Shown piece by piece: positions 1,009-15,405 of a stretch of DNA of 64,000 nt (position 1 is the stretch's first letter; each line of letters starts with the position of its first letter). Under the pieces are notes generated by a model. That model did not search any database and was not told the DNA's origin. It was given only the letters and a program-made list of their open reading frames with translations. The DNA lies in NCBI GenBank assembly GCA_902802985.1, contig CADCOE010000054.1:1-64000 (forward strand), in the 5' to 3' direction. The position numbers and the translations under genes are program-made. The DNA comes from an uncultured Ruminococcus sp. (GTDB lineage Bacteria > Bacillota > Clostridia > Oscillospirales > Acutalibacteraceae).

Positions 1009-1405
1009 CGGGATCACCGCCTTCCATCTGCTCCATGGCCAGCGCCATGTGCAGCTGCCGGTGCTGCCTGTCCGGCATGACCAGCAGGTTCTCCGGGCTG
1101 TTGTCCGAGGCGTCGCCGTTCATGTGATGGACGACTTCGCCGTGCTCCAGCGGTCTGCCGATGTACGCCTCCGCTGCGGCGCGTGCCTTCTTCGAGTTGG
1201 CTTTGCCGCGATCGGCGATGTGGCAGAGAGGGTTCCGCTTCCGGTTGAGCTCCGTGAGGTGGGCTGCCTTATGGCCACGGGCGAGCTTGGCGAAATCCAC
1301 GTTCTCGCTCATCCACAGGTTCCGGTGCTCCGCCGAGCAGAAGTTCTTTCGGCGCGGGTTCTTTCGTTCGATGGCCTTTCCGCAGACCACGCAATGCACG
1401 ATCAT
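998..1405 (-). CDS. HNH homing-type endonuclease inserted in SNF2 helicase gene
   Basis: A 135-residue protein. The N-terminus holds a zinc-binding CxxC pair (C5, C8) with a further C23. The C-terminal half has the HNH signature GEVVHHMNGDASDNSPENL (His93-His94, Asn96, Asn106) followed by His119. The family cuts DNA at a specific site and is common as free-standing or intron-borne genes in phages. Its ATG overlaps the TGA of the helicase N-part (ATGA), and its TAA lies inside the start of the helicase C-part. The inserted segment is about 395 bp, nearly all ORF, which leaves no room for a self-splicing intron. A longer reading frame extends upstream, but only this ATG fits the overlap and the zinc motif. 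Confidence 0.85.
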   Translation of the reverse strand: MIVHCVVCGKAIERKNPRRKNFCSAEHRNLWMSENVDFAKLARGHKAAHLTELNRKRNPLCHIADRGKANSKKARAAAEAYIGRPLEHGEVVHHMNGDASDNSPENLLVMPDRQHRQLHMALAMEQMEGGDPDGK

Positions 1406-1719
1406 GGGGTGCCTCCGATCCCGAAGGTGCGCAGGGCGAAGTTGTACGCTCTGACCTGATGCTGATAGGGCGTCGCCTTGATCGGCATCGGGATAATCGG
1501 AACTTCGTCGCCCGCGTCCTGCGCCTTGATGTCCGGCGAAAGCGTATCGTCGAGCTCTGCTCCGAGCAGACCCAGCAGCGCCACGTTCTCTTTGGAGTAG
1601 GGCACCACCCACGCCTTATCGTCTGGGTCGTAGAATCTGCCGTCGATCTCTTTGATGCTCTCTTTCGCCAGAAATGCGTCGTAAACGCGAATGTGATTAC
1701 CGTCTCTTATTGCGTTCAA
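1402..1719 (-). CDS. SNF2-family helicase, N-terminal part (split gene)
   Basis: A 105-residue piece ending ATPYQHQVRAYNFALRTFG and then GGTP and a stop. The PYQHQ motif is the Q-motif-like segment that precedes motif I in phage SNF2 helicases, where the protein would normally continue straight into the Walker A region. Here the Walker A region starts in the separate gene at 1008. Both parts lie in the same reading frame, with the HNH gene between them in another. The start ATG overlaps the stop of the upstream HTH gene by 4 bases. Confidence 0.8.
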   Translation of the reverse strand: MNAIRDGNHIRVYDAFLAKESIKEIDGRFYDPDDKAWVVPYSKENVALLGLLGAELDDTLSPDIKAQDAGDEVPIIPMPIKATPYQHQVRAYNFALRTFGIGGTP

Positions 1720-2057
1720 TGTTTTTGCTCCTTCACGCTTGGTTTTGCGAAGGCGGTGAGGATGCTCTCTATCGTTTTCTGCTGATCCGGCTGCAGTCCG
1801 GGGAGCAGAGAGCGCAGAAGTGCTTCCTGATCATCGTGCAGATACCGGCGTGACAGGTACCATCCGTCCATGGCTCGGACGCCGCCACCACGCCAGTTTT
1901 CTGTAATGATGGGGTGAGAACACGAGAGAATCTGAACGTCGGTTCTTGCCGTCTTATCACAGATATGAAATTCATTGACGATGTCGCTGATCGTGACGTG
2001 ACGGCGATCGCTGATCATCTCTAAAATCAGCTGCCTGCGCTCGATGGCACTCTGCAT
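1716..2057 (-). CDS. small HTH (DeoR-type) protein
   Basis: A 113-residue protein. Its N-terminal 60 residues (IERRQLILEMISDRRHVTISDIVNEFHICDKTARTDVQIL) match the DeoR-type winged helix-turn-helix. No effector domain follows, only about 50 further residues. A good ribosome-binding site (GGAGGTGAGAAC) precedes the ATG. It is first in a translationally coupled string with the split helicase and HNH genes. The likely role is element-encoded transcriptional control; the target is unknown. Confidence 0.7.
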   Translation of the reverse strand: MQSAIERRQLILEMISDRRHVTISDIVNEFHICDKTARTDVQILSCSHPIITENWRGGGVRAMDGWYLSRRYLHDDQEALLRSLLPGLQPDQQKTIESILTAFAKPSVKEQKH

Positions 2058-2173
2058 GTTCTCACCTCCTTCCGCTTTCGTTGGTTGTATTGTAGGAATG
2101 AAGTCGGTAACCTAATTACCGGCTTTTTTAACCTTTTCAAAAAATGTGGTGGATTTTTTCGGGAACAAAAAAA

Positions 2174-2259
2174 GCCCGCCGCAGCAGGATTTCTCCTACC
2201 GTGGCGGGCATAAAAAGTCCGGCAGATAGAATGATCCTTCTGGATTTCTATCTGCCGGA
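2174..2259 (-). terminator. two strong hairpins between element operons
   Basis: The first hairpin (2174-2209) pairs GCCCGCC with GGCGGGC, has an inner AGGA/TCCT stem, and is followed on the minus strand by TTTTTTTG. That is a typical intrinsic terminator for the genes to the right. The second (2218-2259) is a perfect 14-bp inverted repeat, TCCGGCAGATAGAA with TTCTATCTGCCGGA, without a T tract. It could be a processing or protein-binding site. The rest of 2058-2349 shows no gene. Confidence 0.75.
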
Positions 2260-2349
2260 GCCATATTGATCTCTGTCAATTCCGATCCTGTAGCAGACTT
2301 TAACTGTTACGTGCGGCGCTCATAACGATGTGGTGTTCGAGTCCGGCGC

Positions 2350-2565
2350 TCATGGCGCAACAGAGGTCTTATTCGGTTTTTCTGGTCTGTCCGGTATCGT
2401 CTGTACCAGCTTGATTGTGACCGCTGCATCCTGCCCAACGATCACCCGCAGTTTGCTGCCGCACTTGGGGCAGCTCAGTTCCATTCCGTCGCAGCGCTTC
2501 GATTTTCCGATCGGCTTACTACACTTCGGACAGCAGGCGTAAAGAAACGTGTCTAATTCTTCCAT
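2350..2565 (-). CDS. small zinc-ribbon protein
   Basis: 71 residues with two CPKC knuckles (CCPKCSKPIG near residue 12 and CPKCGSKL near residue 32), which is the pattern of a zinc ribbon. The RBS AGGAGGATGTCAG lies just upstream. Such small zinc-ribbon proteins are common in conjugative elements and phages; no specific function can be assigned. It follows another zinc-ribbon gene. Confidence 0.6.
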   Translation of the reverse strand: MEELDTFLYACCPKCSKPIGKSKRCDGMELSCPKCGSKLRVIVGQDAAVTIKLVQTIPDRPEKPNKTSVAP

Positions 2566-2602
2566 CTGACATCCTCCTTGGTTTCTGTGCAGCGCACGGT
2601 CA

Positions 2603-2803
2603 TCAAACAGCCTCCCGCGCAGGGTACTGCGCCAGCTGATCCAGCCGCAAAAGCGGAATCTTCATGGCGTGCGTCCGGGCGTATTCGCCGTCCATGACCT
2701 CGGTGTTACAGTGCTCGCAAATCATCCAGCCGCCCGTTTCGTCCAGATACAAGCCTTTATTCAAAGTGCCGCAGATCGGGCACGTAATGTCGTATTGCTT
2801 CAT
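2603..2803 (-). CDS. small zinc-ribbon protein
   Basis: 66 residues with ITCPICGTLNKG and MICEHCNTEV, i.e. two CxxC knuckles about 20 residues apart. This is a likely zinc ribbon of unknown function. It sits between the YolD-like gene and a second zinc-ribbon gene in the same minus-strand run. Confidence 0.55.
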   Translation of the reverse strand: MKQYDITCPICGTLNKGLYLDETGGWMICEHCNTEVMDGEYARTHAMKIPLLRLDQLAQYPAREAV

Positions 2804-2818
2804 TTCAGGTGCCTCCGT

Positions 2819-3145
2819 TCAACCTAAATCCGTAATCCTGATTGAGTAGATATCCTCGAAGTATATCTGCTCGCCGTCCAATTTGAGCCAGCGGAACGTG
2901 CAATCCACGTCCGTGATCCTGCCGCGTTTGGTGACGTCATGAAAAGCGCAGTAGCAGTCGATTTCAACTTTCATGCCGCGCCGGAGCTTCAAGAGGATCC
3001 GTGAGTTGTGTTCCGCCTGCTCATCGGAAATCTCATGCCGCTCCACCCGCAGGTGTCGTTCTTCACGATCCCGCAGCGCTTCCTGCAAGCCCTTCATCGC
3101 ATCAAACGGACTGAAGATTTTAGCTCTTTCTGCTCTTGTCATCAT
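2819..3145 (-). CDS. YolD-like protein
   Basis: 108 residues with FSPFDAMKGLQEALRDREE near the N-terminus, resembling the YolD family. YolD-family genes are commonly paired with Y-family (UvrX/UmuC-like) polymerases, and here the gene overlaps the end of such a polymerase by 26 bases. The family is thought to modulate the polymerase or SOS mutagenesis. The pairing strongly supports the call. Confidence 0.75.
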   Translation of the reverse strand: MMTRAERAKIFSPFDAMKGLQEALRDREERHLRVERHEISDEQAEHNSRILLKLRRGMKVEIDCYCAFHDVTKRGRITDVDCTFRWLKLDGEQIYFEDIYSIRITDLG

Positions 3146-4406
3146 ATCCTGCTCGATGCCCTCCTATAAATCCGTTCCGTTCACGCTGGGTGCCCTCCGG
3201 CATGTAGTTGACGCCATGGAGGACAGCGTTTTTGCCGTACCGCTGCCGAATGTCGAGAACGGTCTGCTGCACGGTTCGCTCCCGCTCGACGGCATCAAAG
3301 TTCGTGAAAAGGTTGTAGCCCTCACAGCCTTCGTCGCACACATCCTCGAATGCGATGCCGAGCCGTCTGATCTTGGTGTGGCGATCCGTGGTTTTATCGT
3401 AGACCCGCAGCGCCGCCTCCACAAGGAAGGAAGCGAGGGCGGTCGTCACATCCAGCTTTGCAGTACCCTTGGTGGGGGCGATTTCGTCATGGGTATAGCC
3501 GACAAAAATGCCGACCTTGCTGGTGATGACTTTCCGCCGCATGAGCTCCGCTGCTCCGTTGAGCGCCATCTCATGCATGACTGTCCGGGCTTCCTCGAAG
3601 GTGTAGTCCCGGGGCAGGATCTGCGAGAACGATACGGATTTCGTCTTACTCTTATATGCTTTGATGTCAGAGATCAGGCACGGCTCGCGTCCCCACGCGT
3701 GGTCAATGAGCAGTTCCGCGTTCTTTCCGAAGATTTTGTACATGAGCCCTGTGTCCATCTGCGTCACGCCGCGCATATCGAAAACGCCGTAGCGCTCCAG
3801 CCGCCGTGCCGTCCCGCCTGCGACCATCCAGAAATCCGTGATCGGGCGGTGATCCCATAAGGTCTGCTTGTACTTTTCTTCGTCCAGTACGCCGATGTGA
3901 TCTCTGGCGTGCTTGGCCGTAATATCCAGCGCGATCTTGGCGAGGTAGAGGTTCGTGCCGACCCCTGCTGTGGAAGGAATGTGATAGCGGTCTGCGATCT
4001 CATTCATCAGGTGCTTGGCGAACGTCACCGCGTCCATGTGATTCGGTGCCAGATAATCGGTTACGTCGAGGAACGATTCGTCGATCGAGTACACGTGGAT
4101 GTCCTGTGGGTCGAAGTAATCCAGATACAGCGAGTAGATGTCCGCTGCGTATTCAATGTACAGAGCCATGCGGGGCGGGGCGACTTCGTACTTGACATTG
4201 TTCGGGATCTCCGACAGCCTGCACCGGTTTTTTATGCCTTGCGCTTTCATCGCCGGTGTAATGGCGAGGCACAAGGCATTCTTTCCGCGTGTAAGGTCTG
4301 CGACCACGAGGTTCGTCTCGAAGGGGTTGTACCCACGCTCGGCGCATTCGACCGAAGCGTAAAAGCTCTTCATGTCTATGCAGAAGTATGTTCGTTGCTT
4401 TGCCAT
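3120..4406 (-). CDS. Y-family (UmuC/UvrX-like) translesion DNA polymerase
   Basis: 428 residues, full length for the family. The palm has Asp11 in FCIDMKSFYASVE and the catalytic pair in YSIDESFLDVT (Asp109, Glu110). These are the metal-binding acids for nucleotide addition. A helix-hairpin-helix region (GGTARRLERYGVFDMRG) and a little-finger domain follow. It copies damaged DNA. It lies downstream of a LexA-like repressor and a 75-residue gene and upstream of YolD, so the module is an element-borne SOS/mutagenesis cassette. Confidence 0.93.
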   Translation of the reverse strand: MAKQRTYFCIDMKSFYASVECAERGYNPFETNLVVADLTRGKNALCLAITPAMKAQGIKNRCRLSEIPNNVKYEVAPPRMALYIEYAADIYSLYLDYFDPQDIHVYSIDESFLDVTDYLAPNHMDAVTFAKHLMNEIADRYHIPSTAGVGTNLYLAKIALDITAKHARDHIGVLDEEKYKQTLWDHRPITDFWMVAGGTARRLERYGVFDMRGVTQMDTGLMYKIFGKNAELLIDHAWGREPCLISDIKAYKSKTKSVSFSQILPRDYTFEEARTVMHEMALNGAAELMRRKVITSKVGIFVGYTHDEIAPTKGTAKLDVTTALASFLVEAALRVYDKTTDRHTKIRRLGIAFEDVCDEGCEGYNLFTNFDAVERERTVQQTVLDIRQRYGKNAVLHGVNYMPEGTQRERNGFIGGHRAGYDDKSRKS

Positions 4407-4447
4407 GGTGGGTACACTCCATTTTGGTTATTTGTGAGGCGGCGGAG

Positions 4448-4675
4448 TCATAGGGCCTGCACCGCCTCGATGCTAGGGCCGCTGCTCTGCAGACGGTCAG
4501 CGAATGCCTGCAGCCGCTCCTTTGTGTACATGGCCGTGCAGCTGATATGCATGACCATGCCTCCGGTCTTTTTGTCGTAGACTTGGATGTGCCCGTTGTA
4601 CGCCTGTCCCACGTAGTAGTCCTGCGTCTCAACGGCTTCGCCGTTTCTGCGGCGCTGCTGATATCCAGTTCTCAA
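4448..4675 (-). CDS. small conserved hypothetical protein
   Basis: 75 residues, MRTGYQQRRRNGEAVETQ at the start, with no domain I recognise. A TTG start is likely because GGAGG lies about 8 bases upstream. It sits between the LexA-like gene and the polymerase with short gaps, so it is probably co-transcribed and damage-regulated. Function unknown. Confidence 0.55.
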   Translation of the reverse strand: MRTGYQQRRRNGEAVETQDYYVGQAYNGHIQVYDKKTGGMVMHISCTAMYTKERLQAFADRLQSSGPSIEAVQAL

Positions 4676-4690
4676 CTCTGATCCCTCCGA

Positions 4691-5287
4691 TCACTCCAGA
4701 TCCTTGAGCACCTTGAACGCGACACCCTGAATCTCGCAGTTATCGACGTAGATGTCTTCCATGCGCGAGTTTTCCGGGTGCAAGCGGACGCGATGCTTCT
4801 TCGGTTCCGGGTAGAATCTCTTGAGCGTTGCTTCGTCCTCAATGAGGGCGACGACGATCTGACCTTCGTCGGCGTAGTTCTGCTTTCGGATCAAAACGAG
4901 ATCTCCATCATCGATACCTGCTTCGACCATAGAATCGCCGTAGGCACGAAGAATGAAGAAATCGCCTCGACCGAACAGCGCGACAGGGAGGCGGACGTAT
5001 TCCTCGATGTTTTCCTCTGCGTACTTCGGAATACCGCAGGCAACTGTGCCGAGGATGGGAACCGGGACTACTGCCGCCTTCGTCCGCGTTGCTGTCATGG
5101 TACGCCAGCCAGAATAACTGATAATGCCGTCTTCGCACATCTGGGCGATGTACCGCTGCACCGTGGCCTTCGACGATCCGACGCCGTCCGCTACTTCCTG
5201 CATGGTGGGCGAGATACCGTTATTGTCCGTAAAAGTGGTTACGAACTTCTCGATAGCCGCCATAAGGGTTTTGTCTTTGCTTCTCAT
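4691..5287 (-). CDS. LexA/UmuD-like self-cleaving repressor
   Basis: 198 residues. The N-terminal winged helix (residues 5-60, ISPTMQEVADGVGSSKATVQRYI) resembles LexA. The C-terminal S24 peptidase domain has Ser119 in YGDSM and Lys156 in EATLKRF, the catalytic dyad. The predicted cleavage site is Cys84-Gly85 (TVACGIP), where LexA usually has Ala-Gly. By family knowledge, RecA-stimulated self-cleavage would derepress the polymerase operon after DNA damage. The gene has its own promoter and a palindrome in the leader, so autorepression is likely. RBS: AGGAGGAATT. Confidence 0.9.
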   Translation of the reverse strand: MRSKDKTLMAAIEKFVTTFTDNNGISPTMQEVADGVGSSKATVQRYIAQMCEDGIISYSGWRTMTATRTKAAVVPVPILGTVACGIPKYAEENIEEYVRLPVALFGRGDFFILRAYGDSMVEAGIDDGDLVLIRKQNYADEGQIVVALIEDEATLKRFYPEPKKHRVRLHPENSRMEDIYVDNCEIQGVAFKVLKDLE

Positions 5288-5494: not shown

Positions 5495-5671
5495 CTAACG
5501 ATAACCCATTTTTTCACACAAATCGTGGAGACTCTTCTCATACTGCTCCTTCGAGATTGCCCTGCGTTCGAGAAAGGTTTCTAACAGTTTCTTCTGGCGA
5601 AGAAACAGCTGGTGGTTCTTTTCATTATAAGACAACTGCTCCCAAGGAGTATCTTTCCGTTGAATATCCAT
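5495..5671 (-). CDS. small 58-residue protein at end of defence-like operon
   Basis: It reads MDIQRKDTPWEQLSYNEKNH and continues as charged helices to KSLHDLCEKMGYR. The RBS GGAGAAAGGAAC sits 6-15 bases before the ATG. It is highly charged, predicted helical, and has no signal peptide. It lies 32 bases after the DUF3883 gene and before the terminator, so it belongs to the same transcript. No family is recognised with certainty; an accessory or antitoxin-like role is possible but unsupported. Confidence 0.6.
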   Translation of the reverse strand: MDIQRKDTPWEQLSYNEKNHQLFLRQKKLLETFLERRAISKEQYEKSLHDLCEKMGYR

Positions 5672-5703
5672 CAGTGTTCCTTTCTCCTACGAAACTAATC
5701 AAG

Positions 5704-6582
5704 TTATGAAACGGGGGCGAATCGAGCGGAGAATGCTGAATATGGGATCTTGGCGTTGTCCCACAATCCGGTTTTGCCATCTACGGGTATATGAGGACTC
5801 ATTTCATCTGCTGTGATCCTTGCCAGCATACGGCTTGAAGCGCATATACACCAAAAGTAAAAATAATACCGTCCTTTGTTGTTTGCCAGAGTTGCAGTTT
5901 CCCATTCATGTCTGGTAATAATAGCGAAGGCATTTTGAATGGATTGTGTCGAGGATTTGACCTCTATTAGTATTCGCTCGTTGTTCTCTGCAGACCGTTG
6001 CGATAGAATATCATATCCGGCAAGGTTGGTTTCGATAGCTCTCCAGTCTGGCTGAGCTCCAGTCCGCGCTTCTTCATAGAGCATTGTCAGTTTTTCTCCT
6101 TGCCGCCCGACTTCGTTATTCTGCTCATTCTTTTTCGTTCTTTCTATCTCTGCAAGAGCATCCCACCAATTCAAAACAGCATCATCTTGACTGTCAATCA
6201 GCCCTGCTTCTGAAAAGCAACGTTGTTCTTCTTCGTTCATGAAGAGATATGCTTCTTTTCTGCCATATGGGATTCTTTTCGCCCATGCAGGCTGGCACAC
6301 GGCAATATACTGTGACAAAATGATCCGCCATAATTCTTCCGAGATCGATTCACCATTAAACTTTGTGAGAATGGTGTGCCCAATATCAGAAATCCCAATT
6401 TTTGAATAGGACAGCAGTATCCACTCGCACTGTTCTGCAAATGCAAGAGAAACCGCGAAATTGATCCCAAGGGGCAGTTTGATTTGTGCTGCTTCCTCCA
6501 GTGTATGGCATCGATTCTTGTTGATGCAATCGATAAAGAGCAACGATTGGGACACGACGTTAACTGAAATATACGTTTTCAT
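5704..6582 (-). CDS. DUF3883 domain protein, putative PD-(D/E)xK nuclease
   Basis: 292 residues. The C-terminal half (from residue 156, NEVGRQGEKLTMLYEE) matches DUF3883. It has Glu163, Asp191 in GYDILSQ and the Glu207-Val-Lys209 pair in ILIEVKSS, the layout of a PD-(D/E)xK nuclease, then the ITRHEWETA and GRYYFYFW segments typical of the family. DUF3883 proteins are commonly found next to helicases and restriction enzymes. The start overlaps the helicase stop by 4 bases (ATGA). This is the only protein in the operon in which a complete nuclease-like triad is visible, so it is the best candidate effector (inference). Confidence 0.8.
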   Translation of the reverse strand: MKTYISVNVVSQSLLFIDCINKNRCHTLEEAAQIKLPLGINFAVSLAFAEQCEWILLSYSKIGISDIGHTILTKFNGESISEELWRIILSQYIAVCQPAWAKRIPYGRKEAYLFMNEEEQRCFSEAGLIDSQDDAVLNWWDALAEIERTKKNEQNNEVGRQGEKLTMLYEEARTGAQPDWRAIETNLAGYDILSQRSAENNERILIEVKSSTQSIQNAFAIITRHEWETATLANNKGRYYFYFWCICASSRMLARITADEMSPHIPVDGKTGLWDNAKIPYSAFSARFAPVS

Positions 6583-8366
6583 TTGGCATCGTCTCCAAAG
6601 AAATAATCGATCACTGCTTTAACGTCATCACCGGTCATATCGTCAGTTGAGAAATCGATGTCATACGGGATGGCCTCAACATTTAAGGATGTATCGTTTA
6701 GTGCATCAGCCATAGTATTAACTTTGATTTTCAACCGCTGATCGATCACCTCATCAATGGTGTTACGGCATTCAACAATTTCGATAATCGGTGATTCATC
6801 TGGCTTTAAGCCAAGCCGATGGATTCTATCTTCGGATTGTAAATAGTGAGCTGCATTAAACGAGCGATCCACATAGATTGCGTAATGACAAGCCTTGTGT
6901 AAACTTATGGCTTCCGCCGCTGCAGATGGATTTAAAACAAGTACCATCTTTTCCTTGTTTTCATGGAATTGCTTTATTTTCCATTCGCGGGTATCTTCCT
7001 CTTGCTCGTCTCCTGATCCGACACCTCCATATATGCAATCGGCTCCAATGTCTTTTAATCTTTCTGTGATCAGAAGCACATTACGCACGAACTGCGACCA
7101 AATGATCACCTTTTTCCCTTCAGCCGCCAGTTCCCGTGCCTTTTGACAAGCATACTCAATTTTGGGGCCAGAATCCATCGCGATCAAATCTCCGAGTCTC
7201 TTATCGAAGATATAATCCATATCATTTGCCAGTAATGATGGATTGGACGTAAATTCCATGACCTTCATTATTTTTTTGCCGATGTCTCTAAGCGAATACT
7301 TTTCTGCATCTGACAGCATTACCAGCATCTGTCTCTTTGTTTCTGACCGGATTGCTTGATATACCTCGGATTGCAACGGGGTCATGTCAAGGGATACTTT
7401 TCGATGAATGATCGGGGGGATGCCGAGTTGTCCTTTAGTCGTTCTAACGTAAACGGGCTGAAGACTCTCGACCACGTTGTCTTCGGTGACGTATTTGTCT
7501 GGATACAAAAACTCAAACTGTGGTAGCAAGTCGGCGAGTGACTGCGGGCAAGGGGTTCCGGACATAATGAGTTTTCTGTCCGGCAAGTACGAAACATTCA
7601 AAATCTCTTGCGGGCTTACTCCAGACCTACCGCTCTTTATTCTGTGGCTCTCGTCAAGAAACATCACGACTTTGTGGTACACAAGGAACTCTCTTATCAG
7701 ATGAGCGACCGTTGCAAACTGGCCGTATGAAATCAGCATGAATCGAGGATTGTCTCGGAGAAGCCTATCTACGTTCTTTTCACCACCACGCAACCGAACG
7801 AACTTGTATCCCTTGTTTGGACAACAGTCTTCCATCTGGGTCTCCCAAGCGCCCATTGCACTCAAAGGCCCAACTACTAACAAATGGTCGTTATGTTCTG
7901 CATTACAAAAATAGTAGGCGAGCGCTTCCGTAGTCTTGCCTGCTCCGGGAACGGAAAATGTCGCACCTGCGGGAAGAGGCGCAAGGTGCCGGACATTATT
8001 CATTTGGTTAACAGTGAGTTTTCTTGTAAAACCTGCTGCATCTAAACGCGCTTGGATTTCAGCCTCTGAAAGATCCGTCGCTTTACACGCATTTGAATAC
8101 GACCTTGCGTTTGCTGTTTTCAACAATTCCCGTACTTTTGGAGAAAACTCAGCACCGATGTCGTGGTTTTTAAGATACCGTGCTATTTCCGATCGCACGC
8201 CAATAAAAACCCGGTATGGAATGATCAATAGATTATCCACCTGAATAATGGCGGAACTGTAATCCATAATGATCCTAACAAAACCGCGCCATTCATTATC
8301 CGTAAAGCCAAGTGGTTTTACGGTTATTATTTCTTGGGTACTATCGTAATCGAAACGAATTTGCAT
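6579..8366 (-). CDS. SNF2-type DEAD/DEAH helicase of defence-like operon
   Basis: 595 residues. About 130 N-terminal residues have no recognised domain and may be specific to the system. The core has Walker A VPGAGKTT (141-146), motif II DESH (238-241), motif III MSGTPCPQS, and the C-terminal motif VI SEDRIHRLGL. The family translocates on or remodels DNA using ATP. It overlaps the DUF3883 gene by 4 bases and lies 15 bases after the ParB-like gene, so the three are probably made together. It is distinct from the split phage-type SNF2 at the left edge. Confidence 0.9.
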   Translation of the reverse strand: MQIRFDYDSTQEIITVKPLGFTDNEWRGFVRIIMDYSSAIIQVDNLLIIPYRVFIGVRSEIARYLKNHDIGAEFSPKVRELLKTANARSYSNACKATDLSEAEIQARLDAAGFTRKLTVNQMNNVRHLAPLPAGATFSVPGAGKTTEALAYYFCNAEHNDHLLVVGPLSAMGAWETQMEDCCPNKGYKFVRLRGGEKNVDRLLRDNPRFMLISYGQFATVAHLIREFLVYHKVVMFLDESHRIKSGRSGVSPQEILNVSYLPDRKLIMSGTPCPQSLADLLPQFEFLYPDKYVTEDNVVESLQPVYVRTTKGQLGIPPIIHRKVSLDMTPLQSEVYQAIRSETKRQMLVMLSDAEKYSLRDIGKKIMKVMEFTSNPSLLANDMDYIFDKRLGDLIAMDSGPKIEYACQKARELAAEGKKVIIWSQFVRNVLLITERLKDIGADCIYGGVGSGDEQEEDTREWKIKQFHENKEKMVLVLNPSAAAEAISLHKACHYAIYVDRSFNAAHYLQSEDRIHRLGLKPDESPIIEIVECRNTIDEVIDQRLKIKVNTMADALNDTSLNVEAIPYDIDFSTDDMTGDDVKAVIDYFFGDDAK

Positions 8367-8381
8367 GTGTTATCCCCGCTA

Positions 8382-9782
8382 TCAGTGTTTTTGATGCGTG
8401 TCCAGCCAGCTCTTGATTGCCTTCAAATGATCTTCGATCGTATCTATCTGAGCTCTAGCTCCTTCAGTAATAGTGCTATCGTTAAGGCCGCTGTTGCGTA
8501 CGTTCCACAAGGATTTTGCGACCGACGAAAGTGCATTTATCAGGTATTTCGCGCTCTTCTGCTCACTTTTGAGACTCTTTTGTTCGTCTGTGATCTGCTT
8601 AACAAGTCCCCCCAATTTGATCCCAGAACCCTGAACAGCAGCAGCAAGCTCACTGAACGTATCTTTTTTCGTTGTCTCTCCACCGAGCAAATCAATGTCG
8701 TCCTCATCTTCAGACGCAGGTGTTTCGACAGTAGCTGTTCCTCCGCTTACGGGGGTTGTAGGAATCGCTGTTTGTGAGGGCTGCGCAGGCTGAGGTTGAT
8801 CTAACAGAGTTGGCTGTGCGGGCTGCTGCGGCTTGGGGGGTTGTTGCAACAGTCCTTTTTCCTGAAGAGCTGCTGCTATCGCATCAAGATTCTCTGCAAT
8901 GTCTGGAATGTTTGAGTATAGCCTTCCCTGATAGTCTTTGTGTTCGATAAGAGTAAAACACACCGCCTCGAACAATTCCTTTCGGCCTTGATCAGTGATC
9001 TTTTTGCGTTCGTCCACCATGGCCTTAAAGGCGAATTCATCTCCGTCGACAATACTCCATTGATCCGGCTTGCCAATTTTACGGAGATAAATCTCCGCAT
9101 ACTCTAAGGCACCGATGAGTGTATCAACCTCTTTTTTCGTAACATCATAGGACTTAGCCAGCTGCTCCGGAGTCGCACCCGCCTCACGTTCCTCTTTCAT
9201 CATCGCCGCTTTGTTGTGCCATTTGTATTCGGCACGATGAGTTTTTTGAATCTGAAGGCGCTTTTCGAGCGCTTTTATCTCTTCTTCATCACAGTCCTCA
9301 GGAAGCACAGCGAGATCGACAAACTCAAAATGCTTATACTTCTCTGGCTCTTGATAGAATAGCGTTCTCCAAACACACAGTCTTCGGTTGCCGTTAACGA
9401 CAACACCGGTGCTTGTAACAATAACCGGTTCCGTCTGCTGCGTACCGCTCTGAAACTCCTTCAGCAGGTCTTCATCTTCTGCAAGCTTCCGCAGTATTTG
9501 ATGCTGTGCGCGCTGCGCCTCGAGCGAGTCGGGATCTTTAGTGAACAAGTCGGGAGCAGCATCCGGATGAGTCGCTAAGTACTCACGTTGAAAAGTACGT
9601 GTGCGCCCGTTACTCATTCTATACACAGGCAATCCAATTCTGACTGTTATTTGCTTGAGCCGCTGGTATTTTCCCATCACCTCAAGCGGATATAGCGTCT
9701 TTGAACTAGCTGCTTTTGTGGCGATTTCACTTTTCCGAGTGAGCAACGGCTCACCAAACTGTTTCATCGACGGCTGCATCAT
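8382..9782 (-). CDS. ParB-like (ParB/sulfiredoxin fold) protein with coiled-coil tail
   Basis: 466 residues. The N-terminal part has PVIVTSTGVVVNGNRRLCVWR (residues 119-139), the ParB/Srx nucleotide-binding signature (GNRR where ParB has GERR), then an HTH-like stretch (ATPEQLAKSYDVTKKEVDTLI). A Pro/Gln-rich linker (about 315-355) leads to a helical tail. ParB-fold proteins bind CTP/ATP or act as nucleases. It is unlikely to be a partition protein, since there is no ParA and it is embedded with restriction genes. The ATG overlaps the previous stop (ATGA), after GAGGAGG. Confidence 0.82.
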   Translation of the reverse strand: MMQPSMKQFGEPLLTRKSEIATKAASSKTLYPLEVMGKYQRLKQITVRIGLPVYRMSNGRTRTFQREYLATHPDAAPDLFTKDPDSLEAQRAQHQILRKLAEDEDLLKEFQSGTQQTEPVIVTSTGVVVNGNRRLCVWRTLFYQEPEKYKHFEFVDLAVLPEDCDEEEIKALEKRLQIQKTHRAEYKWHNKAAMMKEEREAGATPEQLAKSYDVTKKEVDTLIGALEYAEIYLRKIGKPDQWSIVDGDEFAFKAMVDERKKITDQGRKELFEAVCFTLIEHKDYQGRLYSNIPDIAENLDAIAAALQEKGLLQQPPKPQQPAQPTLLDQPQPAQPSQTAIPTTPVSGGTATVETPASEDEDDIDLLGGETTKKDTFSELAAAVQGSGIKLGGLVKQITDEQKSLKSEQKSAKYLINALSSVAKSLWNVRNSGLNDSTITEGARAQIDTIEDHLKAIKSWLDTHQKH

Positions 9783-10252
9783 GCTTCCTCCTCATTATCG
9801 AAGCCAATAACGACCATTGGCACCGTTATTACTTTTGAAAAAATATTTGTCAGTTCGTTCAGAAAACGCGAATAGTTAGCCACGTTTCCACCGAATGAAT
9901 TTGCACAATCTTTTGTTGGCAGAACGAAAATCGCTGCCTTGATTTTCTGATCCATGTATAAAGCTTGGAGTTTCATGAGATCCGCGTACATTCTCGCCAT
10001 ATTACCTGTCTGTGTACACAGTCCTATATCTTTCCAAATTGACGTTATCGATATGCTGGATTTGGCCGAGAGGTTAACTTTCCCCGACCAGCCCTTCATT
10101 TTTAATTGATCCGAAAGGTCGTCCTTAAAATGCTTGATGTCGTATTTTCCCAAGCTGTAATCAAGGCCGCGTATTACCGACAAAACACTCTCTGTTACTT
10201 CGTTTGGAACAACCTGCTGGCCACTACGATAATTGTAAATGATTGTTTTCAT
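9779..10252 (-). CDS. BglII/BstYI-family restriction-endonuclease-like protein, possibly inactive
   Basis: 157 residues. IGLCTQTGNMARMYADLMKL (77-96), the hydrophobic strand AAIFVLPT and ITVPMVVIG near the C-terminus resemble the BglII/BstYI family core, and the length is short for the family. The strand expected to carry the catalytic acids reads KVNLSAKSSISITS (58-71), with Asn60 and Thr70 where active enzymes have Asp and Glu. By eye it therefore looks catalytically dead, and target recognition may be its job. The methyltransferase lies immediately upstream. The family call rests on motif resemblance only. Confidence 0.6.
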   Translation of the reverse strand: MKTIIYNYRSGQQVVPNEVTESVLSVIRGLDYSLGKYDIKHFKDDLSDQLKMKGWSGKVNLSAKSSISITSIWKDIGLCTQTGNMARMYADLMKLQALYMDQKIKAAIFVLPTKDCANSFGGNVANYSRFLNELTNIFSKVITVPMVVIGFDNEEEA

Positions 10253-10272
10253 CGTTTTTCTCCCTGCCTAAG

Positions 10273-11175
10273 TTATTTCCACTCTTCTGGTGCTTTTGAT
10301 AGATTACTCTGTTTAGCATCATAAATCGGTTGATCGACAGGACGGTATTTGACTGTCCCGTCCAACGAATCTTGCAGTCGTTTCTGGCTAATATCAATGT
10401 ATTCATCTACAAGTTCACAGCCCCAGAATCTTCTTCCATGGATAATGGCCGCGACGCCTGCTGATGAAACGCCTGCGAAAGGATCAAATACCAATTCGCC
10501 TTCGTTTGTCATTGATAGCACCAAACGCTCTATCAATCCAACAGGGAACTGACAGGGGTGAGCAGTCTTTTCAATGTGATTGCTCTTTACATTCGGGATT
10601 TCCCACACATCTTCCGGGTTCTTTCCAAGAGGGTTTCCTGATAATTCGCCTTTGTGCGGGCCTTTGAAATATCTTTTGCCCGGATACTTTGATGGTATAC
10701 GCACGGGATCAAGATTGAATGTATACTTGTTTGTTTTAGTGTACCAAAGCACAACCTCATATCTGCCGCTAAACCTTTTCTTTGTATGCAGCCCGTGTCC
10801 GAAATGCCAGATAATCCGATTGCGAAGCTGCATGTTTAAGTCCTTGAAAATCGGTGCGAACTCGAAGTCAAGTGGTATAATTGCGCCGTTGGAAACATAG
10901 TTTCCTACCTGCCAACAGATACTACCCGTGTCTTTCAGCCGAGGATAGATTTTTCTTATAATTCGCTCCTGCCACTCAATGTAACGGGACAAATCCATCT
11001 TTTTTTCGTATTCTTTACCAATATTGTATGGTGGGGAAGTAACAACCAAATCGAAGATAGGTTCCTCCGGCAATGTATCAAGGAGCTTCTCGACATCCAT
11101 CCCAAAGAGAGCATTTTCTGTGGGTTGCACTGCTGTGATTTTTTTTGTGTCCTTCACAACAATTATATCCGACAT
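10273..11175 (-). CDS. beta-class DNA methyltransferase (SPPY; N4-cytosine or N6-adenine)
   Basis: 300 residues. The catalytic motif IV, TSPPYNIGKEY (SPPY at 47-50), precedes the SAM-binding motif I, FDPFAGVSSAG (DPFAG at 231-235). That order defines the beta class. SPPY is usual for N4-cytosine enzymes and is known in M.BglII-type methylases, which fits the BglII/BstYI-like neighbour. It would mark self DNA. The RBS GGAGGAATGACAG is good. It is first of five lower-GC genes and lies 40 bases after the WYL regulator gene. Confidence 0.92.
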   Translation of the reverse strand: MSDIIVVKDTKKITAVQPTENALFGMDVEKLLDTLPEEPIFDLVVTSPPYNIGKEYEKKMDLSRYIEWQERIIRKIYPRLKDTGSICWQVGNYVSNGAIIPLDFEFAPIFKDLNMQLRNRIIWHFGHGLHTKKRFSGRYEVVLWYTKTNKYTFNLDPVRIPSKYPGKRYFKGPHKGELSGNPLGKNPEDVWEIPNVKSNHIEKTAHPCQFPVGLIERLVLSMTNEGELVFDPFAGVSSAGVAAIIHGRRFWGCELVDEYIDISQKRLQDSLDGTVKYRPVDQPIYDAKQSNLSKAPEEWK

Positions 11176-11215
11176 TCTGTCATTCCTCCGTTTTTTCTTT
11201 TGCAGCTGCTTTCAT

Positions 11216-12214
11216 TCACTGTTCGCATATCGCAGTAATGTGCTTCTTGTACTGATCGATTACAGGCGAAGGCGATATGATCCGCATCTTGTTTCCGAAC
11301 TGCGCCAGCCACCCGAAGAATGTGGGGCTGATCTGCACGTGTACCGTCGCTGCGCAGGTGTTATCATTTACACCCATCATCGGTGTGTCTTCGCCGAATT
11401 TGTCAAAGACGGGGCCGATGAGCTCTTTGCTGAACTGGATTACCACGTCTTCCAGCTCGCCGCTGAACATCTTGAACGCCTGCTCCGTGAACTCTGTCAC
11501 GCCGTCGATCTTGGCGATGGCCTCATCCGACAGCACCGATTCCTCGACGACCTCGACGTGATCCATGCGGTCGATACGGTAGCTGGCGGTCTTGTCCGGG
11601 TGCCTGCTACTGTATGCCATCAGGTAGTAGTTGTCTTCATTGAATATTAGCGCGACCGGCTCCACGTAGTAACGCTTCTTGTCGCCGGTGCTGGTGGCCA
11701 CAAAGACGCGCTCTGCTTTTTCGTTCAGGTGGAAGTAATTGAACGCAATTTTTTTCCTGCGGATGATGGCATCCTCGATGCTGTCCACCGTATAGAGGAT
11801 GGATTCGTTGGTGTGCTTCCGGGTGTTGAAACAGACCATGTTTTCCTTTAGCAGCTTGGCTTGGTGTGATCCGCCGAGGGCGGCGACCTTTTCAACCAGC
11901 TCTGCCGTTTTCTTTTCGGTGACGAAACTGGCCGCCTGCACCGCGTCGATCAGTATCTTGATCTCCGGCACCGTGAGTTCGTGCTCCGGGACGTAGTAGA
12001 ACTTTTCCTTGTCCTTCAGGTAGCTCATGATCTCGAAGCCGTTTTCCTGCATGACTTCTATGTCCAGACTGAGCGTCCTGACGTTGCTGGAAATGCCCAT
12101 CTCATTCAGCCGTCTGCAGAGTTCAACGCGGGAGATAGGATGATCTTCATCCGTCTCTTTGCGAAGCATCTCGTAAAGCTTCAGCAGCTTGATCTTTTGC
12201 ATGTTAGCAGCCAT
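11216..12214 (-). CDS. WYL-domain transcriptional regulator
   Basis: 332 residues. N-terminal winged HTH (residues 5-65, ISRVELCRRLNEMGISSNVRTLSLDIEVM), then a WYL domain (about 145-235, ending YRIDRMDHVEVVEES) and a C-terminal WCX-like extension. WYL regulators of this layout (for example BrxR and CapW) repress phage-defence operons. It heads the defence-like operon with only 40 bases between genes and no visible promoter in the gap. Its GC is high like the element backbone, though, so it may be native to the element. RBS AAGGAGGGGG. Confidence 0.88.
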   Translation of the reverse strand: MAANMQKIKLLKLYEMLRKETDEDHPISRVELCRRLNEMGISSNVRTLSLDIEVMQENGFEIMSYLKDKEKFYYVPEHELTVPEIKILIDAVQAASFVTEKKTAELVEKVAALGGSHQAKLLKENMVCFNTRKHTNESILYTVDSIEDAIIRRKKIAFNYFHLNEKAERVFVATSTGDKKRYYVEPVALIFNEDNYYLMAYSSRHPDKTASYRIDRMDHVEVVEESVLSDEAIAKIDGVTEFTEQAFKMFSGELEDVVIQFSKELIGPVFDKFGEDTPMMGVNDNTCAATVHVQISPTFFGWLAQFGNKMRIISPSPVIDQYKKHITAICEQ

Positions 12215-12830: not shown

Positions 12831-13169
12831 TCAGTTTGTCACACTATCTGTCGGAAATGCTTTTTCGATCTCGTCAATGATTTCATAACGGCCTTGTGTT
12901 TTTCTGCGGAGTTCTGATACTGCGCATTGCCAGTCCTTGAGAAAAGCTCTCTTGTCAGCCTCGGTCTTGAAGCCAACATAATCAAACTCGTGTGCATTGT
13001 TGATAAACAATGCATCATAACGAGCCTGAAGATCATCGAATTTGGAATCCAATTCGCTATCGCTTCGGAGCTCTTCCGGAAGAAGGGTATCAACGATATT
13101 TCCTTCTTCATCATACAGCCACACGGGATAGCAACGGTATTCAAGCATAATCCTAAGGGTTTTAATCAT
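12831..13169 (-). CDS. putative immunity protein (hypothetical)
   Basis: 112 residues, acidic, soluble, no signal peptide: IKTLRIMLEYRCYPVWLYDE at the start, then an acidic middle. I know no named family for certain. It follows the toxin-like gene by 18 bases in the same direction, and size, acidity and order (toxin then immunity) fit polymorphic-toxin immunity proteins. The assignment is from context only. Confidence 0.5.
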   Translation of the reverse strand: MIKTLRIMLEYRCYPVWLYDEEGNIVDTLLPEELRSDSELDSKFDDLQARYDALFINNAHEFDYVGFKTEADKRAFLKDWQCAVSELRRKTQGRYEIIDEIEKAFPTDSVTN

Positions 13170-13187
13170 TTTCTTATACCTCCATCT

Positions 13188-13595
13188 TTATCTCGGATTT
13201 GCACCAACGATATAGCCATTATCACCTACGGTTACGGCAACCTGATAAGTTTTCCCATTGTACTCCACTTCATAGATGGGGCGTCCGGTGCCTTTTCCTT
13301 GGTATCCGACGATAGTTCCTTTTGATGCCGCTGTAAGCACAAAATCGGAAATATCGCTTGATGCGATCCCTTTTGCATTAAAGTTTGATTCGTGTGCGTC
13401 GATTATATGAGCAAGCCCACTTGGTTTTCCGCCTAAATGTCCTTTTTCCAGCCAGATGATTTTCCCTGACGAGTCCTTTGTGATGCCGATGACTTCGTCG
13501 GGATTAATCTTATCGCCGTGCGCTTGAACTTCATCTATTAATGCTCGCCCTTCTCCGCTTGTACCCGTGAAATAACCACTATTACTTTTGCTCAT
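13188..13595 (-). CDS. stand-alone polymorphic-toxin-like domain (BECR-type fold suspected)
   Basis: 135 residues. LAHIIDAHESNF (His63, His68) is followed by a helical stretch (ISDFVLTAASKG) and two strands, RPIYEVEYNGKTYQVAVTVG and DNGYIVGANPR. This His-containing helix, beta-strand pattern ending in GANP resembles C-terminal nuclease toxin domains of the barnase/EndoU/colicin/RelE-like group. There is no secretion or repeat region upstream, so it is a free toxin module. The start overlaps the DUF4417 stop by 4 bases. The reaction is inferred only. Confidence 0.55.
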   Translation of the reverse strand: MSKSNSGYFTGTSGEGRALIDEVQAHGDKINPDEVIGITKDSSGKIIWLEKGHLGGKPSGLAHIIDAHESNFNAKGIASSDISDFVLTAASKGTIVGYQGKGTGRPIYEVEYNGKTYQVAVTVGDNGYIVGANPR

Positions 13596-14308
13596 CCCGC
13601 CCGCCTCCTTTTGTCGAAGGCTGACGCCGTGTTGCCGGGGTAAGCGATCACGTTGATCCCCTGTTCACCCAGCCTGTCAAAGCAAGGATATTTGGCAGAG
13701 CCAAATACGAGAACCGTATGTGGTTGCAGGACGCGGACGAGTTCTTCCAATCCTTCTTCAAATCGCTTGCGATCAACAAGCTTGCGTGGGCTGCCACCGA
13801 CGGTTCCAATGCAAATAACACTGTTCTTTGGGATGCCGTCCCAACAGTATTGCCACGTTTCCTGCGTACCCCAGCGGCAGTTGTTGATAACAGCGATTCC
13901 GTTTTTCCCGAGCCAGTACCCGAATACCCGCATTCGATATACGTTGTATTTCTTAAGCGGCTCCGGGAAATCCTGATAGGTGGAAAAATCCGGCGTGATC
14001 GCTCCGGCGAAATGTCGAAGCACCCGCAGTACGAATTTGCAATCGTGCCAGATCCCGCGCGGTCCGTCGAATTTATAATCGTCGATGTACCAACAGACGA
14101 ATGCGTTACAGAAAAAGGAATCATCCTTTCGTGCCAGCGCATTTCTGTATAACCGTTTCGCTTCATCCCACGTAATGATCGCCGCCGGGATTTCCGTTGC
14201 AGTTGTCGGGCAGAACGGAATATCGTTCGTGCTAAAGGACGCACCTTCACACATGAAGGCGTTCCAAACGTCTTTGCACCCGCTTCGGGTGCGGTTCGAT
14301 ATTGGCAT
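13592..14308 (-). CDS. DUF4417 domain protein
   Basis: 238 residues. Landmarks are the YIDDYKFDGPRGIWHD segment, ITPDFSTYQDFPEPLKKYNVYR and the C-terminal HTVLVFGSAKYPCFD with a Rossmann-like strand. This matches DUF4417, a family common on phages and conjugative elements of Firmicutes with no known reaction. It is upstream of and overlaps the toxin-like gene. A start further upstream cannot be excluded. Confidence 0.75.
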   Translation of the reverse strand: MPISNRTRSGCKDVWNAFMCEGASFSTNDIPFCPTTATEIPAAIITWDEAKRLYRNALARKDDSFFCNAFVCWYIDDYKFDGPRGIWHDCKFVLRVLRHFAGAITPDFSTYQDFPEPLKKYNVYRMRVFGYWLGKNGIAVINNCRWGTQETWQYCWDGIPKNSVICIGTVGGSPRKLVDRKRFEEGLEELVRVLQPHTVLVFGSAKYPCFDRLGEQGINVIAYPGNTASAFDKRRRAG

Positions 14309-14539
14309 ATTTCAACGCTTCCTTCGCTGTGCCCGCAGCGAAACCCTCCGGGACGGGCTGAATTTTTTGCCCGGATGGGTTGACTTTCGAGCAGAAATAT
14401 GCCATAATATCTAATACCACTTAGGAATATGGGAACATATTTCTGCGGAAGGCACATGGTTTGCTGCGCCAACAGCTTATCCATGTGTCTTTTGTCTATC
14501 GTGAACAACCAATTAACACCACCTGCCTTCGTATCATTT

Positions 14540-15103
14540 CTATGACAACAGACTCATTAGGGTCTTTTCATAGTTTTTGGTGAACGGGATATTGCACCAA
14601 TTCTCGTATCTGGTAAAGCAGCGCATCGCGCACGGCTCTGAAACAAAAAACGCATTTGCCACGTCCGTGTAATCATCGCAGCCTGCTTGCCCGATCCACG
14701 GGGTAGGCGCAAGCAGATATGCAGAGTAATAATCTGCGATGCGCCGCGCCAGTTCGCTTTCGCCTCTGTGTCCCATCCGTATGTGACCGATCTCATGACC
14801 GATCGTAAACCGAAGGCGTTCCTTCATTCCATCCGGTCTGTAGTAGATCACAAACGTTTTTCGATCAGGATTGTAATGACTGACTCCATCGACATCCTTC
14901 GGCACGAGTATCCGCTTTGCTTCTTTATCCATTTTGGAAAAAGGAACAAGCTCATATCCGAGCGATAACGCGATTTGCATTGGGTCTATCGGATAGCTTC
15001 GGATATTCAGCTGCACAAGCAAATCAACGGCATTTTCTTCGATTTTATTGTACAGCTTAGCGGGCAAAGACAAGTAGTCCAGATAATCCTGTTCGTACAT
15101 CAT
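14540..15103 (-). CDS. ImmA/IrrE-type zinc metallopeptidase
   Basis: 187 residues with the zinc motif HEIGHIRMGH (HExxH) in the middle, the ImmA/IrrE (M78) hallmark. Members cleave XRE-type repressors to induce mobile elements, as ImmA does for ImmR of ICEBs1. The gene overlaps the XRE gene upstream by 4 bases, so the protease and its probable substrate are made together. This supports an integrative element. Confidence 0.9.
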   Translation of the reverse strand: MMYEQDYLDYLSLPAKLYNKIEENAVDLLVQLNIRSYPIDPMQIALSLGYELVPFSKMDKEAKRILVPKDVDGVSHYNPDRKTFVIYYRPDGMKERLRFTIGHEIGHIRMGHRGESELARRIADYYSAYLLAPTPWIGQAGCDDYTDVANAFFVSEPCAMRCFTRYENWCNIPFTKNYEKTLMSLLS

Positions 15104-15405
15104 TTCTCCATCAGAAGCTTGATCAGCTTGAATTTTTCTTCGTCCGTCATAGAAATGGTGCTTCTGGCGACAAGACGGTAAACATCTTCAAAGCCGGTCT
15201 GATCTTCTTTTCCTGTGATTAAATACTCAACGGTCGTGTTCAGCGCGGTGGCCATGTTTGCTACCACCTCGATCTTGGGCTCTCTTTCGTTTTTCAAGTA
15301 CCTGCACATTGCTGCTTCGGTTACGCCACACATTAGTGCAAACTCCTTTTGTGTGTAGCCGCTTTCTTTAAGCAACTTTGCAATTCGATCTCCTATTCGT
15401 GTCAT
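15100..15405 (-). CDS. XRE-family repressor (ImmR-like)
   Basis: 101 residues. The HTH occupies residues 5-60 (IAKLLKESGYTQKEFALMCGVTEAAMCRYLKNE), followed by a short tail. It is the likely master repressor of the element and target of the downstream ImmA-type protease. It has its own strong promoter with a palindrome between promoter and gene. RBS AAGGAGGAAGGCACC. Confidence 0.88.
   Translation of the reverse strand: MTRIGDRIAKLLKESGYTQKEFALMCGVTEAAMCRYLKNEREPKIEVVANMATALNTTVEYLITGKEDQTGFEDVYRLVARSTISMTDEEKFKLIKLLMEK

Follow-up and report, generated by a model that had tools for sequence, protein, structure and literature searches.

We have analyzed an operon of five genes on the minus strand (positions 5704-11175) of a contig from an uncultured Ruminococcus sp.; the whole stretch studied, 64,000 nucleotides, is called the window, and all coordinates refer to it. 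In order, the genes code for a DNA methyltransferase, a small protein (X) of the BglII/BstYI/BamHI fold, a ParB-like protein, an SNF2-family ATPase and a NOV_C/DUF3883 protein, with a gap of 20 base pairs (bp), a 4-bp overlap, a 15-bp gap and another 4-bp overlap between them. Both catalytic acids of the BglII family are missing in X. We consider it probable that the five genes form an ATP-dependent defence system, a kind of restriction-modification that is undescribed in the sources we searched and has a dead restriction enzyme as its specificity subunit. An earlier reading by a model that saw only the DNA letters (the sequence-only reading) had placed and named these genes. Its positions all turned out correct on re-reading, with the genes on the minus strand, and when we scanned ten window proteins against Pfam, PADLOC and NCBIfam, Pfam returned the families that it had named, with the ParB-like protein recognized by its predicted fold. 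The features of the core operon are as follows.

11175-10273, minus strand: DNA methyltransferase, N6_N4_Mtase family with SPPY motif, 300 amino acids (aa), PF01555 E 1e-52; proposed modification subunit protecting self DNA
10252-9779, minus strand: X, BglII/BstYI/BamHI fold without the catalytic acids, 157 aa, PF09195 E 9.7e-7; proposed specificity subunit
10043..10045, minus strand: X residue T70, alignment column of the first catalytic-acid position of stand-alone BglII-family proteins
10016..10018, minus strand: X residue C79, alignment column of the second catalytic-acid position, two residues before the invariant Q81
9782-8382, minus strand: ParB-like protein, 466 aa, ParB-type nucleotide-binding fold and helix-turn-helix (HTH) region predicted with AlphaFold2 and Foldseek; proposed clamp/adaptor
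8366-6579, minus strand: SNF2-family ATPase with FSVPGAGKT P-loop, 595 aa, PF00176 (SNF2-rel_dom) E 1.4e-14; proposed DNA translocase
6582-5704, minus strand: NOV_C/DUF3883 protein, PD-(D/E)xK type, 292 aa, PF13020 E 5e-11; proposed nuclease
5956..6012, minus strand: NOV_C motif D191...E207-V-K209, invariant alignment columns

In the mechanism that we propose, the methyltransferase would mark a site in the host DNA and X would bind the same site when it is unmodified, acting as a specificity subunit in the way of HsdS in Type I systems. X would then pass the site to the ParB-like protein, which may close on the DNA there as a clamp, the SNF2 ATPase would move along the DNA or strain it, and the PD-(D/E)xK domain of NOV_C/DUF3883 would cut.

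Loss of the active-site residues in X

X of the window scores 29.1 bits against PF09195 (cut-off 26), which places it in the BglII/BamHI fold family. Its AlphaFold2 model has a predicted local distance difference test score (pLDDT) of 93, and a Foldseek search with this model gave BstYI, BglII, BamHI or OkrAI as all of the top 16 matches (E<=9e-7; best 8.5e-10 to BstYI and 9.0e-10 to BglII), the next match having an E of 0.28. To compare loci, we scanned a genome collection (84,980 species) with an alignment of SNF2 proteins. At least 590 stretches matched, 505 of them encoding relatives, and the best 80 of these 505 were examined. A BglII-type X, mostly of 151-160 aa, is found directly upstream of the ParB-like gene in 61 of the 80 loci. 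We aligned 62 in-operon X proteins (from the window, 59 of the 61 loci, L004 and L095) with 10 controls, stand-alone proteins of the BglII family that came from 398 genomes of the window's phylum. The X proteins of L018 and L063 were left out because of the calling of their open reading frames (ORFs); both have GLC-x-QTG and are likewise without the Glu.

The two catalytic acids were present in 10/10 controls and both were missing in 62/62 in-operon proteins, the window's X included. At the first position the controls had D (7) or E (3), and X had T (42), F (8), S (6), A (3), N (2) or P (1). At the second, E (8) or D (2) in the controls was replaced in X by C (45), Q (12), H (2), A, G or S (1 each). 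Two residues further on, Q was found in all 62 X proteins and E (4), Q (3) or G (3) in the controls. Around the BglII controls no ParB, SNF2 or NOV_C genes were detected in the 2-3.6 kilobases (kb) examined, and the same holds for all control loci, including those of the families described below, over 1.8-7.7 kb. Judged by this alignment, X is a restriction-enzyme fold lacking its active site, and the active PD-(D/E)xK site of its own that a Type II enzyme carries beside its methyltransferase was not found in it.

Two other families occupy the same place. BanI/DpnII-like proteins fill the X slot in L010, in L115 (from the window's own genus; L002 is the same place), in L116 and in viral loci. 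Those of L010 and L002 match PF24447 (E 5.4e-8 and 3.2e-7) and PF04556 (E 6.6e-6 and 1.3e-5). A PDB sequence search with the BanI-like X returned only repeat-protein, ribosomal-protein and similar matches, which were discarded as spurious. We compared 10 slot proteins of this type with 8 stand-alone DpnII-family controls, leaving out L204, L211, L212, L213 and L214, which were partial or not recovered by the ORF rule. The D of all 8 controls is S in nine slot proteins and D in one, their E is D in nine and M in one, and their N is S in seven and T in three. The third family, in L005-L008 and L128, is recognized by the PADLOC REase_II model PDLC03501, to which three of the proteins were compared (E 1.4e-18 to 1.1e-21). 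This model had no match in 199 genomes of the window's phylum, and seven stand-alone plasmid relatives, which adjoin C5 methyltransferases, were taken as controls instead. They have D (7), E (6) or D (1), and K (7) in columns that we read from the alignment as the putative active site, where the five slot proteins have V (3) or I (2), I (5) and K (5).

Thus two unrelated restriction-enzyme families that occupy the same slot have, to judge from these columns, also lost catalytic residues. Viral contigs show all three types: among 19 viral loci with the full core, 18 carry an X directly upstream (nine BanI/DpnII-like, eight BglII-like and one of the third family) and the remaining one starts at a contig end. 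We lean towards the view that a conserved machine made of a clamp dependent on cytidine triphosphate (CTP) of the ParB kind, SNF2 and DUF3883 has recruited, as specificity subunits that can replace one another, dead Type II enzymes of three or more unrelated families, and that its target would change by swapping the recognition gene together with the methyltransferase.

The ParB-SNF2-NOV_C block and its spread

The sequence-only reading had allowed that the genes might not be conserved as a block in other genomes. We found the ParB-like, SNF2 and NOV_C genes consecutive, in the same order and on one strand in 73 of the best 80 of 505 relatives. The other seven comprise contig ends (L014, in which NOV_C begins and the contig then ends, L083, L069 and L075), split SNF2 frames (L063 and L079) and an SNF2 ORF whose start was called too early (L011); no locus among the 80 contradicts the block. 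Because the order recurs in 73 loci and the rest are cut, broken or miscalled, the co-occurrence of the three genes is more than chance. The 80 loci belong to 13 phyla, with 42 in Pseudomonadota and 17 in Bacillota. Our counts contain near-copies (L019/L094, L093/L102 and L095/L114 are the same places) and identical SNF2 proteins (L130/L132, L127/L133 and L049/viral L137).

The same order was found when plasmids and phages were searched with the ParB-like protein, on plasmids of Paracoccus, Mesorhizobium, Rhizobium, Kozakia, Azospirillum and Streptomyces and in the Streptococcus phage Javan191. In the Mesorhizobium plasmid a transposase gene lies between the SNF2 and DUF3883 genes, and the Streptomyces plasmid copy is without X. 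In a tree of the SNF2 proteins (107 rows, excluding L063, L079 and L083) the hosts are intermixed, for example Verrucomicrobiota with Pseudomonadota, and this mixing therefore suggests that the module has been transferred between species. Within the window's phylum the ParB-like protein was matched in 11 of 398 genomes. Five have the full core (the window's own genome, G382, G336, G426 and G350), three have ParB-SNF2 without NOV_C (G476, G483 and G151), one (G289) encodes a ParB-like HEPN protein, with no SNF2 detected, and two weak matches (G410 and G438, E 7e-4) were not counted as members. In L121 (7346-9463) a ParB-like protein with a Swt1-like HEPN domain (PF18731 E 7.4e-23) lies beside C5-type methyltransferases (identified by eye). 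Among 149 relatives of the window's genome three had a ParB-like match, namely the genome itself, G040, which has the full core, and, weakly, G018 (E 6.9e-4, no module match). The full core was present in 19 of 80 viral loci, the other 61 having mostly distant SNF2 proteins without a ParB match, and the ParB-like protein as a lone query in the viral contigs gave 20 stretches, none of them confirmed.

At E 0.1 nothing in Pfam, NCBIfam or PADLOC matched the ParB-like protein, and PADLOC has no model for it. Its AlphaFold2 model has a pLDDT of 89, and in Foldseek rows 1-33 were all ParB, Noc, KorB or ParB-like proteins (best E 4.6e-3), with unrelated helical proteins also appearing further down. 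VIA-align superposed the model on KorB 8qa9 with Z 9.8, 4.6 Å and 199 residues. The predicted structure has the arrangement of the ParB/Noc/KorB group of CTP-dependent clamps, an N-terminal nucleotide-binding fold with a GxRR box followed by an HTH region, and G131, N132, R134 and E173 are conserved in 93/93 rows. The nucleotide box is there, and CTP binding and closure of a clamp are putative, the likeness being one of fold. The motor motifs of the SNF2 protein are intact (K144 and T145 in 86/86 rows, D238 and E239 in 87/87, R514 and R517 in 86/86). D191, E207 and K209 of NOV_C are likewise invariant in 86/86 rows; the part of PMC3710099 available to us terms DUF3883 a novel restriction endonuclease (REase) domain. 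A PDB sequence search with the NOV_C alignment gave nothing useful.

The closest solved relative of the window's methyltransferase is M.RsrI (E 1.4e-30). As in Type II systems the enzyme is encoded in the operon, and it is presumably cognate to X. A tblastn search with nine queries detected methyltransferase genes within the DNA examined around the module in 71 of the 80 loci. Seven of the nine without a match are cut near the module (L025, L029, L035, L059, L069, L079 and L087), L066 has a methylase ORF that these queries missed (PF01555 E 1.9e-8), and in L011 no methyltransferase was found in 17.8 kb. Six loci typed with Pfam had N4/N6 (L041, L052 and L080) or C5 enzymes (L021, L024 and L064). 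In L021, L026, L030, L034, L037, L053 and L065 the BglII-type X is accompanied by a downstream C5-type methyltransferase on the opposite strand that replaces the N4/N6 enzyme, in some cases with a Vsr-like gene. We had considered that the alphaproteobacterial copies without an N4/N6 enzyme could use the CcrM of the host. This idea was dropped because a C5 methyltransferase adjoins the module in those examined (by Pfam in L021 and L024).

Exceptions and alternative explanations

Several observations weigh against the mechanism proposed here. X of the known types is absent, with the core present, in 11 of the 80 loci (L019, L043, L048, L050, L056, L064, L066, L076, L080, L081 and L082), and in L015 there is only a remnant of it. 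The retention of NOV_C in the X-less loci argues against X as the cutter, and is as expected if NOV_C and not X cuts, but the absence of X also argues against its being indispensable for recognition. In L076 the gene before ParB codes for a protein that is of PD-(D/E)xK type but of a different family (PF12705 E 9.2e-12) and that may be active. The losses of the active site are few: two changes explain the BanI type on the tree of SNF2 proteins and a single one the third type, and the evidence therefore amounts to about three losses, each in another family, and not to 77 independent events. In nine of the ten DpnII/BanI-like slot proteins the second position is still acidic (E to D), and the one of L115 keeps the D, the same protein having M for the E. 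L106-L108, three of the 10 BglII controls, carry G at the third position and are possibly inactive enzymes themselves. The resemblance to ParB is one of fold, with CTP binding putative. Outside the 80, ParB and SNF2 were found with no NOV_C detected by hidden Markov models or tblastn in L118, L119, L120 and the viral L141, L143 and L153; in L141 the protein before ParB is of the Type III res family with an endonuclease domain. Finally, the operon of L115 contains a strong match to the NgoBV family (PF09564 E 7.5e-100).

Some of these loci can be described further. L043, L048, L050 and L056 have the same methyltransferase family and the core without an X gene, and recognition may have been transferred there to the methyltransferase. 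L119 (4561-12747) and L120 (637-4417) have the ParB-like gene followed by an SNF2 gene with an N-terminal phospholipase D (PLD)-like domain, and in L119 they are accompanied by a protein of the MutH family (PF02976 E 3.4e-33) and, judged by eye, a C5-type methyltransferase. In L141 (3349-9506), as in L143 and L153, a protein of about 990 aa comes first (in L141 the Type III res-type one), then the ParB-like protein and SNF2. One way to read the loci without NOV_C is that the nuclease part is exchangeable too. L115 (416-7712, genome G040) has in one run a C5 methyltransferase, the NgoBV-family enzyme, the BanI-like protein without the Glu, ParB, SNF2 and NOV_C; it is a Type II pair that adjoins a dead-enzyme module.

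X could still be a nuclease with a moved active site, formed for example by the invariant Q81, D91 and E133. The operon would then be a Type II enzyme with ParB-SNF2-NOV_C as an accessory module that processes or removes the cut DNA. Catalytic acids that have migrated are known from other enzymes of the PD-(D/E)xK kind, D91 and E133 are invariant in 62/62 X proteins, with E at position 133 in 0/10 controls (D in 2), and the methyltransferase and NgoBV-family enzyme beside the module in L115 fit the same idea. However, D91 is also found in 7 of the 10 controls and for this reason looks structural, both acids have gone in the BglII and third types, the DpnII/BanI type has lost the D in nine proteins and the E in the tenth, and X can be missing from loci that retain NOV_C. 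We regard this explanation as unlikely. Slightly less likely, in our opinion, is that phage DNA is excluded without being cut, as BREX is thought to do, with NOV_C as a regulator or binding domain. An architecture of methyltransferase plus ATPase, the lack of NOV_C at some ParB-SNF2 loci and the related NOV_C domains of other defence proteins (the PADLOC partial matches of NOV_C were TmtA and PD-T4-1) would agree with exclusion, but the D-E-K of NOV_C is invariant in 86/86 rows and PADLOC detected no PglZ or BrxC among the ten window proteins.

The ParB fold, the presence of several copies on plasmids and viral contigs, a ParA gene that the small Kozakia plasmid carries at about 1.3 kb from the module and the matches of 2 of 91 upstream ORFs (from 48 loci) to ParA-type families could point instead to plasmid or phage maintenance (partition or copy control) through the ParB-like protein. 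We consider this very improbable: no ParA match was found with Pfam among 16 window proteins, and the genes constantly beside the ParB-like one encode an SNF2 motor and a protein with a nuclease fold, to which a methyltransferase and a restriction-enzyme fold are usually added. The restriction-like system of the sequence-only reading, with recognition, translocation and cutting on separate proteins, gains support from the dead X families and from the intact motifs of NOV_C and SNF2.

Relation to known systems and surroundings of the operon

The sequence-only reading had matched the operon to no named system and had set it apart from DISARM, BREX and Zorya; the comparison with PADLOC models, to which this statement applies, agrees. 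DISARM and Zorya share with it an SNF2-type helicase, and DISARM a methyltransferase as well. In PADLOC the SNF2 protein gave partial matches, the best to ZorD (E 4.4e-19) and others to DpdE and, weakly, to DrmD (1.9e-7) and DrmA (3.1e-6), but DrmB, DrmC, ZorA and ZorB had no match among the ten window proteins. The lack of PglZ and BrxC separates the operon from BREX in the same way. Classical Type II enzymes (BglII/BamHI/BstYI and DpnII/BanI) are of the families or folds of X, usually with a methyltransferase gene near; here the catalytic residues have been lost and three extra conserved genes are present. Type I systems (HsdRMS) have, as is well known (see also the accessible parts of PMC2878639 and PMC3874165), separate modification and specificity and a PD-(D/E)xK nuclease with an ATP motor. 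Here, by contrast, motor and nuclease are separate proteins, a ParB-like protein comes in addition and specificity would be supplied by a Type II enzyme that is dead; none of the ten window proteins scanned with Pfam, PADLOC and NCBIfam matched HsdS, HsdM or HsdR.

As far as the available parts of the sources go, CglI is the nearest worked split system, an endonuclease with a separate helicase-like ATPase moving along DNA (PMC5737866), and CglI/NgoAVII have a methyltransferase, a site-recognising protein and a separate helicase-like ATPase (PMC4267653, PMC5737866). Their R protein is the endonuclease, whereas here the proposed recognition protein is dead, the nuclease motif lies elsewhere and a ParB-like protein is present. 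No R protein combining recognition with an active nuclease was found, and the module proteins of the window gave no PLD match in Pfam at E 0.1. BREX-related (BR) systems also combine an inactive REase domain, an SNF2 helicase and an active nuclease, but in the accessible part of PMC12839542 the inactive domain lies inside the helicase and is a proposed nucleotide sensor, and here it is a free-standing Type II relative from several families.

On this comparison we assign the operon as a restriction-modification variant outside Type I, Type II, DISARM, BREX and Zorya. In the literature searched, which included few subscription papers, we came across neither the operon nor any use of dead Type II enzymes as specificity subunits; in particular the operon is not described in the accessible parts of PMC4260502, PMC10853773, PMC12839542, PMC3710099, PMC6098607, PMC3459991, PMC5512222 and PMC5737866. 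If the proposal is right, restriction enzymes would have been turned into pure DNA-recognition subunits by active-site loss in three families that share one slot of the operon. The known restriction types would gain a modular one, found in genomes of 13 phyla and with a ParB-like protein for which PADLOC has no model, and testable roles would follow for a ParB clamp in immunity and for DUF3883 as the nuclease of a restriction system. The combination of a fixed core with recognition proteins that can be swapped could also be of practical interest for site-specific cutters.

Two further genes had been included in the system by the sequence-only reading.

12214-11216, minus strand: HTH-WYL-WCX regulator, 332 aa, PF13280 E 2.8e-10
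5671-5495, minus strand: ORF of 58 aa with no real match in Pfam, PADLOC or NCBIfam

In 128 homologous loci tblastn detected a homologue of the WYL protein in one (L013, about 7 kb downstream) and of the 58-aa ORF in none. At the level of the family, 48 loci with 91 ORFs of 180-450 aa upstream of the module yielded a single WYL gene, in L064, and the window and L064 are the two places where such a gene is beside the module. Owing to this rarity neither gene can be taken as a conserved part of the system, and the WYL protein is a possible local regulator of the operon.

The operon had also been described as lower in guanine plus cytosine (GC). This stands against the left flank (46% in the operon, 56% in positions 1-5000) and not against positions 16001-64000 (40%), the GC content descending in steps along the window from 56% (1-5000) to 46% (from the operon up to 16 kb) and 40% (16-64 kb). 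To the left of the operon, at 3120-5287, a LexA-like repressor (NCBIfam lexA E 2.3e-39) and a DinB/UmuC-type polymerase gene form a small SOS cassette. On the other side, positions 12831-15405 contain genes for a DUF4417 protein, a peptidase of the IrrE type and an HTH protein of the Cro/C1 type, together with two small ORFs that no Pfam family matches, a gene content that suggests a mobile element.

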